Below are positions 48,746 through 64,000 of a stretch of 64,000 nucleotides of DNA, piece by piece. Under the pieces are notes generated by a model. That model saw nothing but the letters and a program-made list of their open reading frames with translations, was not told the DNA's origin and ran no database searches. The stretch comes from Desulfobacterales bacterium HSG2. GTDB lineage: Bacteria > Desulfobacterota > Desulfobacteria > Desulfobacterales > 4be13. Position 1 is the first letter of the stretch. Every line of letters starts with the position of its first letter. The stretch lies in contig JAUCGI010000009.1 of NCBI GenBank assembly GCA_030378035.1, positions 1-64,000 on the forward strand. Direction: 5' to 3'. A program made the translations under genes and the position numbers.

Positions 48746-49915
48746 ATGATAAATGATTCTGTGACAACTTTTTTGTCGCGATTCCGCCTCAGACACATAT
48801 TTCTTGTCTTACTGACAATCGTCGTTTCTTCCTCCTGTTCCATGAGGTCAACGACGATTCAGACTGAGATTATTGTCCAAAATGCCGAAAATATTGTAAT
48901 ACCTGAGCCGGATATAACAGACGAGGAACCTGAAATCATTGTCGAATATCCGGGACCTGTGGAAGTCAGTAACCCGGAACCCGAGGAGGTCAGTAATCCG
49001 GGACTCCTGGAAGTCAGTAACCCGGAACCCGAGGAGGTCAGTAATCCGGGACTCCTGGAAGTCAGTAACCCGGAACCCGAGGAGGTCAGTAATCCGGGAC
49101 TCCTGGAAGTCAGTAACCCGGAATCCGAGGAGGTCGGTAATCCGGGACTCCTGGAAGTCAGTAACCCGGAACCCGAGGAAGTCAGTAATCCGGGACCTGT
49201 GGAAGTCAGTAACCCGGAACTCCTGGAAGTCAGTAACCCGGAACTCCTGGAAGTCAGTAACCCGGAACCCGTGGAAGTCAGTAACCCGGAACTCCTGGAA
49301 GTCAGTAATCCTATAAACGCGGCTACTGATAATTCCTCAGTCGCTGACCATCGATTTTATTCGAGATACTCGAAAAAATTGGGCATACGTCTTGACGGCA
49401 CGGAAAATAAGGCATTAATCAGGTCAATTGGCCGATGGTTGCGCGTTCCTTTCAAATGGGGAGGATGCTCAAAGCGCGGGGTTGACTGTTCCTGTTTCGT
49501 CAAACTGGTTTATAAAGATGTCTATGGCATCTCATTAAATCGGACGTCAAGGAATATCGTTCATAAGAATCTGAATTCCGTGGAGAAACGGGAATTACGG
49601 GAAGGAGATATTATCTCTTTTAAAATTGGCGGGGACAGGATTTCACACATCGGCATCTATCTGAAAGATAATAAATTTGCCCATGTCAGCCGCAGCAAAG
49701 GGGTAAGGATCAGCAGTCTCACCCGAAAATATTACAGGGAAAGATTTTTCTCAGCCGGGCGTGTGAAAAGAGGTTTTAAAAGAGTTTATGTAGCCAAAAA
49801 AACATCCAAGCCGCCTGCGCCTGCACCGAATTTAGAACAAACTGTAAAACTGGGTGAATTAACTGTCCATGAAACCATAGACAGCAACGTCATAACGGTT
49901 TCCACCAGTATGTGA
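48746..49915 (+). CDS. NlpC/P60 lipoprotein with a 15-copy EVSNPxx repeat linker
   Basis: The 389-residue protein has a lipoprotein-type signal (FLVLLTIVVSSSCS, Cys ~30). An extended Pro/Glu-rich region follows, with 15 copies of a 7-residue unit (EVSNPEP, EVSNPGL or EVSNPEL). The C-terminal NlpC/P60 domain has VPFKWGGCSKRGVDCSCFVK (catalytic Cys), ISHIGIYLKDNKFAHVSRSK (His residues) and RERFFSAGRV. The 21-bp DNA unit repeats from 48960 to 49311. It would hydrolyse peptidoglycan cross-links from an outer-membrane anchor. Confidence 0.85.
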   Translation: MINDSVTTFLSRFRLRHIFLVLLTIVVSSSCSMRSTTIQTEIIVQNAENIVIPEPDITDEEPEIIVEYPGPVEVSNPEPEEVSNPGLLEVSNPEPEEVSNPGLLEVSNPEPEEVSNPGLLEVSNPESEEVGNPGLLEVSNPEPEEVSNPGPVEVSNPELLEVSNPELLEVSNPEPVEVSNPELLEVSNPINAATDNSSVADHRFYSRYSKKLGIRLDGTENKALIRSIGRWLRVPFKWGGCSKRGVDCSCFVKLVYKDVYGISLNRTSRNIVHKNLNSVEKRELREGDIISFKIGGDRISHIGIYLKDNKFAHVSRSKGVRISSLTRKYYRERFFSAGRVKRGFKRVYVAKKTSKPPAPAPNLEQTVKLGELTVHETIDSNVITVSTSM

Positions 49916-50563: not shown

Positions 50564-51664
50564 TTACTCTGACTTGGGTAAAGTAAATTTGAACTCGCTC
50601 CCCTTTCCGACTTCACTTTCAATCCATATTTTTCCCCCGTTTTTCTCTATGAATTCCCTGCATAATATCAGTCCCAGACCGGTCCCCTGTTCGTTTGCCG
50701 TTCCGAGTGTGGAATGGTGAGCATCTATTCTGAAGAGCTTTTTAATATTCTCCGGCTTGATTCCGACACCTGTGTCAGAAATCGTTATTTCCTCATCATC
50801 TCCCTTTGTTTCGGATGTAATCTTAACCTCTCCGCCTTCATTGGTAAACTTTATGGCATTTGAAACCAGATTCCGAACAATCATTGTCACCATATTGGCG
50901 TCCGCGTAAATTATCGTATCCTTGCTGATATCCGAGTGCAGACTGATTTTTTTATTTTCCGCGCCGATTTTCAATAGTGAAACATTTTCAAAGGCATAAG
51001 TATACAGGTCAATCTCGGCAGGTTTCCAATCAATTTTACCTGTCTGTATTCTTGACCAGTCCAGCAGATTTTCCAACAATTTGTATCCCTGTTCGGAAGA
51101 TTGGAAAATACCCTCAATAAAATGTTTTTTTTTATCATCGTCAAATATGTCAAAATTCTGAAGCAATAATTTTGACAACCCGAGCAACGCATTAAAGGGA
51201 TTTTTCAGATCATGCGCGATGATTGAAAAAAATTTGTCTTTTGTGGCATTGGCTTCCCGCAAATTCTTCTGAGCGTCTCTTAATTCCAGATGCGTCCTGA
51301 CCCTTGCCAGCAATTCCTTCTCGTTAAAAGGTTTGGTGACATAATCCACCGCGCCGATATCGAACCCTTTTATCGTACTTTCAGTACCCGTTTTTGCTGT
51401 GAGAAATATAATGGGAATCTCTTTGGTTTCAGGCTTCTGTTTCAGCCGGTCGCAAACTTCGAAGCCGTCCATTTCCGGCATCATAATATCCAACAGAATC
51501 AAATCAAAATCATTGGTCTGGGTAAGATTGAGCGCGGTATTGCCGTTGTTGGCAAAAGAAATATGATATCCCTCTTTTTGCAAAATGCTCCCTGCCAACT
51601 GGATATTTTTGGGAACATCATCGACAATCAGAACCTTGAACTTTCTGTTGCTATCCTTACTCAT
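50564..51664 (-). CDS. response regulator-histidine kinase hybrid
   Basis: The 366-residue protein starts with a REC domain (FKVLIVDDVPKNIQLAGSIL, phosphoacceptor in DLILLDIMMPEMDGFE). HisKA (FFSIIAHDLKNPFNALLGLS, His) and HATPase (NAIKFTNEGGEVKITS and GTGLGLILCREFIEKNGG) follow. This order, with the receiver first, resembles orphan cytoplasmic kinases. It follows the sensor kinase on the same strand and could relay its signal. Confidence 0.9.
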   Translation of the reverse strand: MSKDSNRKFKVLIVDDVPKNIQLAGSILQKEGYHISFANNGNTALNLTQTNDFDLILLDIMMPEMDGFEVCDRLKQKPETKEIPIIFLTAKTGTESTIKGFDIGAVDYVTKPFNEKELLARVRTHLELRDAQKNLREANATKDKFFSIIAHDLKNPFNALLGLSKLLLQNFDIFDDDKKKHFIEGIFQSSEQGYKLLENLLDWSRIQTGKIDWKPAEIDLYTYAFENVSLLKIGAENKKISLHSDISKDTIIYADANMVTMIVRNLVSNAIKFTNEGGEVKITSETKGDDEEITISDTGVGIKPENIKKLFRIDAHHSTLGTANEQGTGLGLILCREFIEKNGGKIWIESEVGKGSEFKFTLPKSE

Positions 51665-51683: not shown

Positions 51684-51808
51684 GGGGTATAAGGGTTAAG
51701 TTTTAAGGGTTAAGTTTTAAGGGTTAAGGGTTAAGGGGTGCATGATACTTAAAACTTAGCCTTAACCTTAACCCTTAACCCTTAACCCTTAAACCCTTAA
51801 CCCCCTTA
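51684..51808. repeat. palindromic GGGTTAA/TTAACCC heptanucleotide array
   Basis: GGGTTAAGTTTTAAGGGTTA on one arm and ACCTTAACCCTTAACCCTTA on the other meet near 51735-51765. The right arm encodes the C-terminal residues of the hybrid kinase on the minus strand. It is non-telomeric because it has no species context and is interspersed with GTTTTAA units. Confidence 0.9.
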
Positions 51809-53378
51809 ACTCTTCAATTAATCCCGGATAGGATTCCAATGTGGCTCCTATGTTTTCAATATCAAAAATTCTTACCTGTGAAATCAGGTCGTCTCCGAAT
51901 TTCTGAAACGCTTTCAGTGCATATTCATCACCGAGCGATTTCATTTTATCGCCAAATTCCTGAATATCGGTCATGCTGTTATTGTTGCGGACAGATTCCC
52001 ATAACGGCGTAAATTCGTTTTCCAGCTTGTCAATTATTTCAGGAACCTTTTCCAGCGTCTCAGGGGAGACATCTCCTAACAGTCCTTCCTTTTCCGATAT
52101 TTCAGATCCTTTTTCAAGGGTTTCTTTTTTTGAATGTCTGATAAAGCGTGATAATTCCCGGAACAAGTCTGAGCGTTTGACCGGTTTGATCAGAAATCCG
52201 TCAAACTTGCTGTGCATGATTTTTTCTTTATCCTCTTTCATGCCGGAGGCTGTCAGCGCAATGACCGGGATATCCTTTATATCCTCATCCTCTTTGATCT
52301 GTTTCGTTGCCTCATATCCGTCCATCACAGGCATTCTTATATCCATCAGAACCGCATCCGGCTGATACTGTCTGATAAGGAGGAGGGCTTTTTCACCGCT
52401 TTCAGCTTCAATCGTGCTGATGTTTGTATCCTGAAAGAACGCTTTCACCAAGTCACGATTGGTTTCAATATCATCGACAATCAGAATGACCGACTCTTCA
52501 AATAATATGCTCTCCTCATCAAATATTTCACCTTTTTTGGATTTGGCCTGAGTTGCGGAGACAGCCACATTATGCAGAACAATCTCAAAACGGCTGCCTT
52601 TGCCGATCCCGCTTTCAGCAGAAATTGCCCCGTCCATCATTTCAACCAGCCGTTTTGTGATTGCCAAGCCCAGTCCGGTGCCGCCGTACCGCTTGGTGCT
52701 CTGACAATCCTGCTGTTTGAACGCGTCAAATATGGTTTCCAGAGCTTCGGAAGGGATGCCGATGCCGGTATCCTCAACAAAGAGGCTCAGGTCCAGACTG
52801 CTTTTGTCATTCTCGATATATGTTTTCTGAACGGAAAGTCTGATGTGCCCCCTTTCTGTGAACTTGACAGCATTGCCGAACAAATTAAACAGTATCTGCC
52901 TCAGACGCACCTCATCCAGAAGCAGGCTGTCCGGGATATCCGGGGCAATGTCAACTATGAATTCAAGCCCCTTTTCAGACATTTTCAGGGAAAAAACATG
53001 CCGGATCTCATTAATCATTGAATAAAGATTTACCGGCTCATATTCAAGCTGCATTTTGCCGGCTTCGATTTTGGAGAGATCCAGGATATCATTAATCAAG
53101 GTCAGCAGACTTTTCCCGCTGGATCGGATCGATTCAAGATAATGTCTCTGTTTTCTTTCCGTGACGAGCGCGTAAAGCAGATCGGCAAACCCCAGGACAG
53201 CATTCATTGGGGTACGGATCTCATGGGACATGTTGGCCAGAAACTCGCTTTTGGCCCGATTGGCGCTTTCAGCAGTCTCTTTGGCCCGAAGCAGTTCCGT
53301 ATTGGCCTGTTCGGCAGTCTCTTTGGCCCGAAGCAGTTCCGTATTGGCTTGTCTCAGTTCAGCAACACGGCTGGACAC
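51789..53378 (-). CDS. hybrid histidine kinase (kinase-receiver part)
   Basis: The 529-residue protein from a GTG at 53378 has a coiled-coil repeat ([20 protein letters not shown]). HisKA follows ([20 protein letters not shown]), then HATPase ([36 protein letters not shown]) and REC ([37 protein letters not shown]), with an HPt-less C-terminal region. The same reading frame continues upstream through one in-frame TGA (53388-53390) into the sensor half at 53391-54167. The pair therefore probably was, or still is, one kinase. The coiled coil contains a short internal duplication. Confidence 0.85.
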
Positions 53379-53387
53379 TTCTTTCTT

Positions 53388-54167
53388 TCAGTTATGGAGG
53401 TATTGCTGATGCTGCCTGATTTCATTTTCCCGATGCCGCTTCAGTTGCTCTTCCTGAATCTCAATTTCAGCCAGCATTTCATTGAACCCGTCAATCAGAA
53501 CGCCGATTTCATCCCGGGGGCATTTGCATATTTCCCGGACCGAATAGTCCTTTCTCTTTGAAACGGTTTTCACTGTGTCGGTCAGCTTCAGAATCGGATC
53601 GGAAATGAGACGCTGGAGTGAAGAGGAAAGCTTCAGGGCGACCAGAACGGCAAGGAGCATGATAATGGCAAAGATGAACCCGGCCTCCTTCATTTTGGAA
53701 AGCATCTCTTCCAGATCATACTTGACGAAAACCGTTCCGATAACCTCATTATCCGAAAGAATCGGCTGAAACAGAAACAGATAGTCATCACCTTCAAACT
53801 TTTTGAAATAATGTCCGGATTCCCGGTATTCCAAAAGAGATATGTCGTAGGTGATGTCGTTGCGCACATAAGTGGCAAACACCTTCCCCTCTCTGTCATA
53901 AATACAGGCAGCATAAACATACGGCATGCCCCGCAAAGTCCCCAGATTCTCTTTTGCCGTACACGGATCATTAAAGAGGAGCGTTCCCTCACTGTTCATT
54001 CCGATCATCTGCGTCATGCTGGAAAGCGAGGCGACAAGGGAATGACGGAATATGATGATATCTTTGATCGCAAAAGCGACCGATGCCAGCAGCAGGGTGA
54101 CGCCGCTGGTGAGCATGATGATCAGCACAAGCTTGCGCTGGATAGAAAGATTTTGAAGAAATCGCAT
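53388..54167 (-). CDS. membrane sensor half (CHASE8/HAMP) of hybrid kinase
   Basis: The 259-residue protein has two membrane helices ([20 protein letters not shown] and [20 protein letters not shown]) around a periplasmic CHASE8-like domain ([18 protein letters not shown]). A HAMP ([20 protein letters not shown]) and a coiled coil ending at YLHN then lead to TGA. The kinase core follows in the same frame after KK. It overlaps the YfiR gene by one base-pair junction (TAAATG). It could sense envelope conditions reported by YfiR. Confidence 0.85.
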
Positions 54168-54854
54168 TTATTTGCCCCCCTTTCCGGGTCGATATCTCCT
54201 TCTTGGTTGACGCACATTTCTGGGTCGATGCCCCTTTTCGGATCGATCTTTCCTTCCGATTACCCTTGCTGCCGACTTCAGAAGTTTTGATCGTAATTTC
54301 AGGCCGGACTGTCTGGCGGCATCCAGATTGACCTCATAACGAAGTTTCTTTTTCATTACGGAAAAACCGATGATACCGCCTATTTCAATGAAACCTTCCA
54401 TCTCCCCGACTGTTAATACGCTCTGATTTTTCACACTTTCCAATCTCTTCCGAACGAACTTTCTGTTCGTCGAATTGAAAAAGAGGATATGGCAGGCACC
54501 GCTCTCTTCACAACCGCAATCTTCGACTTTTTTATTTTGTAGCTCGGGGATTATTTTAAATAATATGTTTTTGTCATTCTGGTCTGAGTCCGGACAAAAG
54601 CAATTCGATTCACATTCTTTTACTTCGAGCTTTTTCCCTCTGACAGTTTTGTTATTCAGGGAGAAAAAAACATCGTTATGCTGATCCGAGACAATGCACA
54701 GGGAAATTGAATCGTCGGTCTCCTTAAAAGTGTTTTCAGGCCATGTGACGAACCTTGCAAAATTATAAATAAAGGCCGCTTTCAGCCGATACTCCGTCCA
54801 TGCGGGGGGCTGTGCATAAGCGTCCGTTGCAGTAAGACTCATAATATATAACAT
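54168..54854 (-). CDS. YfiR-family (DUF4154) periplasmic protein
   Basis: The chosen start at 54854 gives MLYIMSLTATDAYAQPPAWT. It has EYRLKAAFIYNFARFVTWPE, NVFFSLNNKTVRGKKLEVKE, HILFFNSTNRKFVRKRLESV and VLTVGEMEGFIEIGGIIGFS, the YfiR pattern. The signal peptide seems to begin in the upstream minisatellite (FRLFLIMLYIMSL). The gene is part of a TonB-receptor/YfiR/kinase module. The C-terminal ~30 residues are basic (RPRNVRQPRRRYRPGKGG), unusual for the family and probably repeat-derived. Confidence 0.8.
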   Translation of the reverse strand: MLYIMSLTATDAYAQPPAWTEYRLKAAFIYNFARFVTWPENTFKETDDSISLCIVSDQHNDVFFSLNNKTVRGKKLEVKECESNCFCPDSDQNDKNILFKIIPELQNKKVEDCGCEESGACHILFFNSTNRKFVRKRLESVKNQSVLTVGEMEGFIEIGGIIGFSVMKKKLRYEVNLDAARQSGLKLRSKLLKSAARVIGRKDRSEKGHRPRNVRQPRRRYRPGKGGK

Positions 54855-54861
54855 TATCAGA

Positions 54862-55090
54862 AAGAGTCGGAATTTGAAACTTGAAATTTGAAACTTGAAA
54901 TTTGAAACTTGAAATTTGGAACTTGGGACTTGGAACTTGGGATTTGAAACCTGAAATTTGAAACTCGGACTGAAACCTGAAATTTGAAACTTTGGGGTTT
55001 GGTTTGGAACTTGGAACTTGGAGTCTGAAAGCCGGAATTTGGGCGTTGAAATTTGGGCGTTGAAATTTGGGCGTTCTTCCGGGAAAGTAT
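54862..55090. repeat. AAACTTGAAATTTG array upstream of YfiR gene
   Basis: Direct units of GAAACTTGAAATTTG, CTTGGAACTTGG and GCGTTGAAATTTGG are arranged with a ~14-bp period. They create a long minus-strand frame that is joined to the YfiR protein. It is treated as non-coding except possibly the signal-peptide start. Confidence 0.85.
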
Positions 55091-55314
55091 CATTTACTTT
55101 CAGAAGAGTATTATAAAGGATGCCGGAATTTGAAACCCGATGTCCGGGATTTGAATTTCGACTTCTGGCTTTCAGTCGATGCAATTCAGGTTTCAAGTTT
55201 CCGATTTTCGTTTTTTCTTTCATCCTGTATTCCTTAAAATGTGTCATGAAAACGAGGATAGTCATGTAGGGTGGGTAGCATAGCGGAACCCACCATTTAT
55301 ATTTTGGAGTCCCC
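55091..55314. other. intergenic, repeat fragments
   Basis: It contains more degenerate TTTGAA units and GTAGGGTGGGTAGCATAGC with GGAACCCACC (55268-55297), a hairpin related to the one at 49937. No gene is seen. Confidence 0.45.
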
Positions 55315-57441
55315 TTAAAATCGCCAATCAGCCTTGAAGTAAACTTCCCGTTCAATCTCAAAAGAGGAAAATTCCTGATGCCGTTCTTCAAGGATATCCT
55401 GCCCCACAACTGACAATTCAAGATTTTCAAGCGGCTTCCAAGACAGCCGGGCATCCAGTGTGATATAGCTGTCAACATCGTTTTCTGAAAGACTGTCAAC
55501 ATAGCGCAGCCACAGATCAAAACTGAGCTGTTTCGTAATATCCATAAAAGAGCGCGTGGAAAACTGATTGTTGGGGTTGCTTCCCTCTGGTTCAAAGTCT
55601 TTGCCTGTGACACTCCCGTACTGCTTGGCCTTCAGATAACTGTATGAAGCCCGCAGTCGCCACCAGGGGACGGCCTGCCAATCTGCCGCTATCTCGACTC
55701 CGTAAGCTTCACCCTTCATATTATTTTTAAAATAATAGGGAATCACATAATGTGGGGATGGTTCTGTTTTTGTGTGTGGTTCCCCCTGCCTGTACCCGAT
55801 CAGTTCATCATAATCGTAATAAAATGCCGTGGTATCCAGCCACAGACTGGCTGACGGTTTCAGACGATAGCCAAATTCATAAGCCATAAGCGTTTCAGAA
55901 TTCAAATCCTCATTTCCCGAAACATTGACAGAGCCGGCCTTACCAGGAAACAGCTTTTCTAAAATCGGATGGTCGGGGGTCACAATGCCGGAAGTCTCCT
56001 TTATATTGCGTTCATATCGGGAGGGAGTCCTGACCGCCCGGGAGACCGCTCCCCATATCGTATGTCGGTCTTTGGGAGTCCAGAGAAAACGGATGCTCGG
56101 CTGTATTTCAAATCCGGTGTAATCATTATGTTCGATCTTCGATCCGATAGTCAGGATCAGACGGTCCGGGATCAGTCGGATTTCATCCTGAAGGAACGCG
56201 CTATAGAGAGACTGGTCAAGAGTAATCGGCGTCATACCGACCTGGATCATGTCCTCATCTTTACAAAAAAATTTATCTGTAATAAAGCGATATCCTAATC
56301 CCCAGACAATTTCATGTCGGGAAAACGCACTGAAACGGTTCCGGAATTCAAGATCATAAGTGTCAACCCAGCCGTTTGCCGAGGCACTGTCATAGTCTTT
56401 GTCCGCATGATCATAATAAAATTGCAACACGGTCTCGGATGTTTCAGAGCAGGCATGACGCCATCGGCCCAGCAAGTGTCCTCCCACAGCATCGGATGCA
56501 TGGCTTATTTGCACGACATAAGGCGAAGAGAGTAGGAAGCGATCATATTGGGTATCATAACGATTGATATAAGCTTCCCCTTGGATGGTGAATGAATTTC
56601 GTTCATCCCCGGTTTCCGGTGTCCGATCCATCCGGAAGCCGCCTCTTAGTGATCGCCAATTATCGCTTGACGATTCTTCATCATCATCGATATCATCGAT
56701 ATCATCGGCATCAGCATCATCGGTACCTTCCCGGTTGAAATACTTCACATAAGCCCGATAAAAGGTTTCCTTTCCAATAGTGCCGCCATAGCGCACACTT
56801 CCGCTCCCCTCCTTGGCACCGCCCAGCGCGGTGACTTGGCCGCCCCGGGTCTCTTTCGCGCTTTTGGTGATGATATTGATGACCCCGTTGACCGCGTTTG
56901 CTCCCCATACTGTCGCGCCGGGGCCCCGAATCACCTCAATTCGCTCGATATCAGCCAGGACCGTATCCTGGACATCCCAGTAAACGCCGGAAAAAACAGG
57001 CGAATAAACACTGCGCCCGTCAATCAGCACAAGGAGATTGTTGGAAAAGTCCTTGTTAAAACCGCGTACGATGACCTCCCAGTCTGTCAGATCATCTCTG
57101 GCAACCTGAACACCGGGGGCCAGGCGCAACGCGTCCGGGATGCTGGTCGCTCCGGAGCGGCGGATATCTTCCTGAGTGATCACAAATACCGCAGCCGACA
57201 CACCTGAAAGTTTTTCCGGCTTTTTCGATACCGATATGATTTCGATATCCTTCAGTTCCTCAAGACTGAACTCGGTAAAATCGATTGAAGTGTCCTGGTC
57301 CGGATCGTTGTCAGCCCGGCAGTTCTGCACTGGCGGAAGCAACATCAGCATTATCACAGCAACCAGAAAAGTCAAGCATGACTGCCGGCTTTGCAGACGG
57401 ATATGAATAAAGTCATAAGTTTGAAGGTCGCGCTCTCTCAT
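55315..57441 (-). CDS. TonB-dependent outer-membrane receptor
   Basis: The 708-residue protein has a signal-like hydrophobic segment (CLTFLVAVIMLMLLPPVQNC). FTEFSLEELKDIEIISVSKK precedes the plug (AAVFVITQEDIRRSGATSIP, APGVQVARDDLTDWEVIVRG). A 22-strand-type barrel follows, ending VYFKADWRF. It is the start of a minus-strand module with YfiR and hybrid kinases. Substrate could be a siderophore or other ligand; no specific binding motif is seen. An Asp-rich loop (DDADADDIDDIDDDEESSSD) lies in an early barrel loop. Confidence 0.9.
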   Translation of the reverse strand: MRERDLQTYDFIHIRLQSRQSCLTFLVAVIMLMLLPPVQNCRADNDPDQDTSIDFTEFSLEELKDIEIISVSKKPEKLSGVSAAVFVITQEDIRRSGATSIPDALRLAPGVQVARDDLTDWEVIVRGFNKDFSNNLLVLIDGRSVYSPVFSGVYWDVQDTVLADIERIEVIRGPGATVWGANAVNGVINIITKSAKETRGGQVTALGGAKEGSGSVRYGGTIGKETFYRAYVKYFNREGTDDADADDIDDIDDDEESSSDNWRSLRGGFRMDRTPETGDERNSFTIQGEAYINRYDTQYDRFLLSSPYVVQISHASDAVGGHLLGRWRHACSETSETVLQFYYDHADKDYDSASANGWVDTYDLEFRNRFSAFSRHEIVWGLGYRFITDKFFCKDEDMIQVGMTPITLDQSLYSAFLQDEIRLIPDRLILTIGSKIEHNDYTGFEIQPSIRFLWTPKDRHTIWGAVSRAVRTPSRYERNIKETSGIVTPDHPILEKLFPGKAGSVNVSGNEDLNSETLMAYEFGYRLKPSASLWLDTTAFYYDYDELIGYRQGEPHTKTEPSPHYVIPYYFKNNMKGEAYGVEIAADWQAVPWWRLRASYSYLKAKQYGSVTGKDFEPEGSNPNNQFSTRSFMDITKQLSFDLWLRYVDSLSENDVDSYITLDARLSWKPLENLELSVVGQDILEERHQEFSSFEIEREVYFKADWRF

Positions 57442-62199: not shown

Positions 62200-62202
62200 A
62201 AA

Positions 62203-62590
62203 AGGGTTAAGGGTTAAGGTTAAGGGGTTAGGGTTAAGGGGTTAGGGTTAAGGAGTTAAGGGTTAAGTTTTAAGGGTTAAGTTTTAAGGGTTAAGTTTTA
62301 AGGGTTAAGTTTTAAGGGTTAAGTTTTAAGGGTTAAGTTTTAAGGGTTAAGTTTTAAGGGTTAAGTTTTAAGGGTTAAGGGTCAAGTTTTGAGGTTAGGC
62401 TATATGCGGGAAATCCTTAACCTTAACCTTAACCCTTAACCCTTAACTCCTTAACCCTTAACTCCTTAACTCCTCAACTCCTTAACTCCTCAACTCCTCA
62501 ACTCCTTAACTCCTTAACTCCTTAAACTCCTTAAACTCCTCAACTCCCCAACTCCCCAACTCCTCAACTCCTCAACTCCTTAACCCTTAA
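62203..62590. repeat. palindromic TTAAGGG/CCCTTAA heptanucleotide minisatellite
   Basis: Units of GGGTTAAG, GTTTTAAG and GGGTTAAGGAGTTAAG run from 62206 to ~62395. A complementary arm (CCTTAACCTTAACCCTTAAC then AACTCCTCAACTCCTTAACT) runs to ~62590. The right end forms the C-terminal codons of the HDAC-like gene on the minus strand (VLRVKELRS). The same type occurs at 51684 and at 63890. Confidence 0.92.
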
Positions 62591-63887: not shown

Positions 63888-64000
63888 GTTTTAAGTTTTA
63901 AGGGTTAAGGGTTAAGGGTTAAGTTTTAAGGGTTAAGTTTTAAGGGTTAAGGGTTAAGTTTTAAGGGTTAAGGGTTAAGGGTTAAGGGTTAAGGGTTAAG
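63888..64000. repeat. GGGTTAAG/GTTTTAAG array at right edge
   Basis: TTAAGTTTTAAGGGTTAAGG and repeats continue to the window end, immediately before the HDAC-like gene on the minus strand (its 5' end lies at 63886). It is the same word set as at 62203. Confidence 0.9.

Follow-up and report, generated by a model that had tools for sequence, protein, structure and literature searches.

In the genome of Desulfobacterales bacterium HSG2, a single in-frame TGA stands between the sensor half and the kinase half of a histidine kinase gene. Does this triplet end one protein just ahead of another, mark a damaged or misread gene, or encode an amino acid? We addressed this question in the window, i.e., the whole 64,000-nt stretch of contig JAUCGI010000009.1 that was analyzed, and in related genomes.

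A TGA conserved between the sensor and kinase halves

The TGA is located at 53390-53388 on the minus strand (the plus strand reads tca at 53388-53390). It terminates a 259-aa sensor-half ORF (54167-53388, minus strand), and a 529-aa ORF runs in the same frame from a GTG at 53378 to 51789. The sensor half (54167-53391) and the kinase half (53387-51789) thus share one frame, with this single TGA between them. Decoded across it, the gene (51789-54167, minus strand, stop codon at 51791-51789) encodes 792 residues with the TGA as codon 260, followed directly by KKEV, the V being the GTG codon. Pfam searches placed a CHASE8 periplasmic sensor domain (residues 41-148, 53724-54047; PF17152, E 2e-15) and a HAMP domain (residues 186-236, 53460-53612; PF00672, 26.5 bits versus a cutoff of 25) upstream of the TGA. 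The set that defines a hybrid histidine kinase, i.e., HisKA (53058-53255; PF00512), HATPase_c (52572-52916; PF02518), and a receiver (Response_reg, 52158-52487; PF00072), lies in one chain entirely after it. The earlier note had described a TGA parting the two halves within one frame, and domains, coordinates, and the KK after the TGA all agree with that description.

The kinase gene is flanked by minus-strand genes in the order TonB-dependent receptor, YfiR-like (DUF4154) protein, kinase, and receiver-kinase protein, an order also found in Desulfonema magnum (locus L069), the one relative compared in this respect. The receptor (55315-57441), identified by Pfam, belongs to the TOL_0244 family (NCBIfam NF053590, 648.1 bits versus a cutoff of 645), and the downstream neighbor (50564-51664), also assigned with Pfam, combines receiver, HisKA, and HATPase domains. 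The upstream neighbor occupies a long ORF (54168-55613) with DUF4154 at 54270-54791 (PF13689, E 2e-35); this protein scored below the cutoff of the NCBIfam TOL_0243 family (105.9 versus 125 bits). Arrays of heptamers and 14-mers (TTGAAAC, AATTTGGGCGTTGA) sit inside this ORF at 54871-55075, which suggests that the true start of the YfiR-like protein is downstream of them; it probably lies well inside the ORF. This neighborhood matches that of the NCBIfam family HK_near_YfiR_like (NF053592), whose members adjoin a YfiR-like protein and a TonB receptor of the TOL_0244 type. The sensor part of the window's kinase scored 208.8 bits against the NF053592 model, above the cutoff of 194, and its counterparts in D. 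magnum, Desulfococcaceae bacterium HSG8, and the Desulfobacteraceae MAG bin_101 reached 212.3, 207.7, and 215.8 bits, respectively.

In the window and six relatives, representing six genera and two families, the TGA falls in a single column of the alignment, and conservation of an in-frame TGA among orthologues is a hallmark of selenoprotein genes. A search of 58 relatives returned D. magnum 4be13 (G002, a complete chromosome), HSG8 (G003), and bin_101 (G014) among the closest matches, with one TGA inside each, as well as G001 and G004, which matched in two segments with the TGA in the second. When 389 genomes of the order were searched, 30 matched at E 1e-45 or better, and G079 joined the TGA forms. 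The triplet is present throughout the window's family (five of five genomes) and in a second family (two of two), and a tree built from 29 sensor sequences accounts for it with a single change (support 77/85). The TGA forms make up one clade, and these counts are therefore not independent. The closest homologue lacking the TGA, that of G035, is 58 to 61% identical. A class-wide search matched 41 of 389 genomes (E 1e-50 or better), and among the matches listed the TGA occurred only in the same clade. At the level of the phylum, 3 of 395 genomes matched at E 1e-75 or better, with the TGA only in the window's genome; these matches did not include the other TGA genomes. A plasmid search returned general kinase matches only, covering at most 19% of the query among the 20 matches listed.

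A single stop in an otherwise intact gene is what a pseudogene, a recent nonsense mutation, or a sequencing error would produce, and the earlier note had named the latter two. Both are excluded by the recurrence of the same TGA in seven genomes of six genera, one of them a complete chromosome. Moreover, none of the seven aligned genes contains a further in-frame stop, and kinase residues downstream of the TGA are conserved. We therefore rejected decay and error alike, the probability of which we regard as negligible.

A conserved hairpin downstream of the TGA

The earlier note had proposed a search for a SECIS-like hairpin downstream of the TGA, and such a hairpin is present and conserved. In the window it spans 53360-53373 (minus strand), with a CAGC/GCTG stem and a CGTGTT loop (53369-53364) that starts 18 nt past the TGA. 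Counted from the TGA, nucleotides 15 to 18 pair with nucleotides 25 to 28 through four Watson-Crick pairs in all seven TGA forms but in none of the 21 alignable non-TGA homologues (24 loci were given, and 3 that did not fit the search expression were dropped). The loop reads CGTGTT in six TGA forms and CGGGTG in G001. In G004, G014, and G079 the third stem pair has changed on both sides from G-C to A-T (A-U in the transcript), a compensatory change that counts as one event because these three form one clade; their hairpins extend to a perfect 7-bp stem.

To what extent could the encoded protein account for this stem? Synonymous resampling that kept each gene's own protein and the codon use of the family yielded such a stem in 0.6 to 2.0% of cases per gene, figures that were not multiplied into a probability because the genes are related. 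Codons 5, 6, and 9 contribute third bases to the stem, and all seven TGA forms agree in these bases; codon 5 always ends in C though it specifies four different amino acids. As a background, an invariant third base was seen in 2 of 60 columns where at least four amino acids occur and in 18 of 170 columns where two occur. The hairpin codons showed only moderately low synonymous change (0.30 versus 0.45 to 0.46 elsewhere), and at least 15 of 638 windows were lower still.

The rules for bacterial SECIS elements given in PMC13188914 specify a loop of 3 to 9 nt, a stem of 4 to 16 bp, a distance of 16 to 37 nt from the UGA, and a G as the first or second nucleotide of the loop. All seven hairpins conform to this geometry, with a 6-nt loop, a 4- to 7-bp stem, G as the second loop nucleotide, and a spacing of 18 nt. 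The same source sets an energy limit of -7.5 kcal/mol or lower for its SECIS model. In 34-nt stretches, this limit was reached by four of the seven (G001, G004, G014, and G079), whereas the window (-6.2), HSG8 (-7.3), and D. magnum (-4.9) remained above it. In D. magnum the hairpin competes with another fold, at a pair probability of 0.15, and a 50-nt fold of the window was no better than shuffles (z -0.38). Rfam had no match at the gathering score in the window and, at E values up to 10 over 301 bases, just two unrelated weak matches.

Shared hairpin letters, selenocysteine machinery, and decoding of the UGA

The hairpin letters are not confined to the kinase. Among the order's 389 genomes, 26 contain the pattern TGA-N14-CARCCGTGTTGYTG, with 27 matches in total, and a control search with the pattern reversed matched none of them. 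Of 20 pattern loci that were fetched, 4 correspond to the kinase, 15 to a rhodanese gene that has a TGA in frame (L136 to L146 and L148 to L151, 14 labeled by script and L143 by eye), and 1 to neither; the 7 further matches comprise 2 kinases by position (G014 and G079), 4 rhodanese-like by their letters, and G188. One rhodanese gene decoded across its TGA specifies a Rhodanese and a Rubrerythrin domain (Pfam). A gene of a different kind thus shares the kinase hairpin letters, with identical spacing from its own TGA. Both genes encode SRVA at positions +6 to +9. The rhodanese TGA sits within VYUAxGGRSRVAAQM, in the rhodanese-domain loop VYUAxGGRS that carries the active cysteine of rhodaneses, whereas the kinase has its TGA in a coiled coil for which no active site is known. 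FdhA genes with a TGA in related genomes likewise place a loop at the 18-nt offset.

The window's genome, 72.6% complete, contains selB with a score over the cutoff, and its selD (L112) itself has one in-frame TGA (GAG*ASK) followed by a hairpin. FdhA matches in this genome were below the cutoff and without a TGA. tRNA-Sec scored over the cutoff in 9 of 12 genomes searched, including 4 of the 7 TGA genomes, and not in the window's incomplete assembly, G003, or G079.

Given a conserved TGA, would a standard tRNA suffice to read through it in a programmed manner, with no selenocysteine involved? Readthrough was among the options that the earlier note had raised. Conservation of the coding sequence on both sides of the triplet is equally expected of such a gene. 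However, the host needs UGA as a selenocysteine codon for its own selD, and the hairpin is located as are the SECIS elements of the FdhA and rhodanese genes of its relatives. We consider ordinary read-through very improbable.

Alternatively, the TGA may be a true stop just after which the kinase half restarts, so that one mRNA would yield two products, a sensor in the membrane and a hybrid kinase in soluble form. Each half does hold a complete domain set, three of the genes have a hairpin that is weak when taken by itself, and the fourth codon past the TGA is GTG both in the window and in D. magnum. The GTG that the earlier note had assigned as start of the second half is thus present in the window, but its conservation is partial: codon 4 is GTG in five of the seven TGA forms and GTC, which is no start codon, in the other two. 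The next in-frame start comes at codon 16 in G003 and at codon 8 in G001, and yet the residues ahead of these starts (V and RV.EL) are conserved. Two separate proteins would also leave unexplained both the hairpin and its absence from 21 of 21 alignable non-TGA homologues. Reinitiation after the TGA was accordingly rejected for want of a conserved start codon, and production of two proteins appears improbable. The earlier note had held that homologues consistently split at this point would speak against its reading. Relatives do share the TGA, but because the hairpin is conserved and a restart codon is not, recoding is favored over two split genes.

Hence, the UGA at codon 260 is very probably read as selenocysteine, resulting in one 792-residue hybrid sensor kinase. 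What the genomes themselves display is the conserved TGA, the hairpin, coding sequence on both sides, and a host with selB and a TGA-bearing selD; from these we infer actual insertion at residue 260. SelB and tRNA-Sec, guided by the hairpin that starts 14 nt past the UGA, would insert the residue into a product ordered as CHASE8, HAMP, a coiled coil with Sec260, HisKA, HATPase, and receiver. Selenocysteine had been ranked as a less likely option in the earlier note, an order that the conserved TGA and conserved hairpin reverse. The locus would then represent a new selenocysteine-coding form of a known kinase family, HK_near_YfiR_like. Ordinary gene calling cuts the gene in two, and such kinases are consequently missed or called broken.

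The linker and possible roles of residue 260

Comparison with the non-TGA homologues in HK_near_YfiR_like indicated that the window and its six relatives differ by the in-frame TGA and a linker that is longer by about 11 residues (7 in G004). Non-TGA linkers read HR.HLE..V..RT.EL, whereas those of the TGA forms read HREN(E/K-rich)YLHR-U-KKEV.SRV.EL. The G004 kinase is devoid of the four residues just before the TGA, with the spacing from TGA to loop unchanged. Counting by eye from the conserved V, the TGA aligns with the Leu of HLE. Nearly all selenoproteins have Cys homologues according to PMC13188914; here, Cys was found at the TGA position in none of the 29 non-TGA linkers and farther downstream in 2 of them. 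If recoding occurs as predicted, a selenocysteine codon can arise with a linker insertion instead of replacing a cysteine. Separately, a 42-nt tandem repeat at 53259-53357 duplicates 14 linker residues downstream of the TGA, and among the seven aligned genes it is present only in that of the window.

What might selenocysteine do at this place? By analogy with redox-switched kinases, we tentatively propose that Sec260 is positioned at or next to the interface through which the signaling helix dimerizes and acts as a fast redox switch, which would couple or uncouple the kinase and a sensor linked to YfiR and the TonB receptor, e.g., via an interchain diselenide between the two Sec260 residues of a kinase dimer. 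The structure prediction was poor (mean pLDDT of 53); it modeled residue 260 in one long helix (220-311) with a local pLDDT of ∼65. A register assigned manually arranges the conserved residues V264, V268, L271, and N275 in a 3-4 pattern, which would place Sec260 in the core if an 11-residue repeat is assumed upstream and beside the core with heptads alone. Two Sec260 residues in a kinase dimer might come close to one another. ArcB, RegB, and EvgS likewise have the reactive residue in the cytosol between membrane and kinase. These proteins use cysteines rather than selenocysteine, and the likeness is an analogy that implies no correspondence of positions. Specifically, two cysteines of ArcB form intermolecular disulfides (PMC3364231, PMC8174306), and in RegB the cysteine is Cys265 (PMC9147068).

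The codon could instead serve as a selenium gate, with the whole kinase made when selenium is available and the membrane sensor half alone when it is not. The TGA falls exactly between the sensor and kinase modules, such that truncation would leave a membrane sensor that lacks the kinase, and the TonB-dependent receptor and YfiR-like genes adjoin in the window and in D. magnum. Truncation at UGA under selenium shortage is nevertheless a general trait of selenoprotein genes, and we regard this kind of gating as unlikely. It seems just as unlikely that signaling would, as such a gate entails, report selenium supply rather than redox state.

In broader terms, it is possible, if somewhat doubtful, that this clade of sensor kinases from sulfate reducers uses selenocysteine as a signaling rather than a catalytic residue, a linker insertion having brought in the UGA and SECIS with no Cys ancestor in sight and the kinase being redox gated, selenium gated, or both. 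Should this be true, placing selenocysteine between a sensor and its kinase would bring selenium into two-component signaling, an unusual use of the element, which would serve in signaling instead of in an enzyme. The reviews of selenoproteins that were searched list mainly oxidoreductases. The passages on kinases, sensors, two-component systems, signal transduction, and chemotaxis of the 2026 review (PMC13188914) name no kinase selenoprotein, and Table 3 of PMC12013277 lists a TonB-dependent receptor and no kinase. A possible precedent in the literature is a brief entry from 2021, "a histidine kinase" among the putative new selenoproteins of the MAG Deltaproteobacteria-bbl-31 (PMC8318568). 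It is likewise a histidine kinase with a UGA and a predicted SECIS from a marine deltaproteobacterium, a likeness at the level of that description.

The window also contains repeats outside the kinase gene. Telomere-like TTAAGGG/CCCTTAA arrays occur at 51685-51803, 62202-62590, and 63898-64000, the first being an inverted pair located between the kinase gene and the one that follows. A 24/48-nt repeat at 48948-49308 encodes EVSNPELL-type repeats in a 389-aa ORF (48746-49915).
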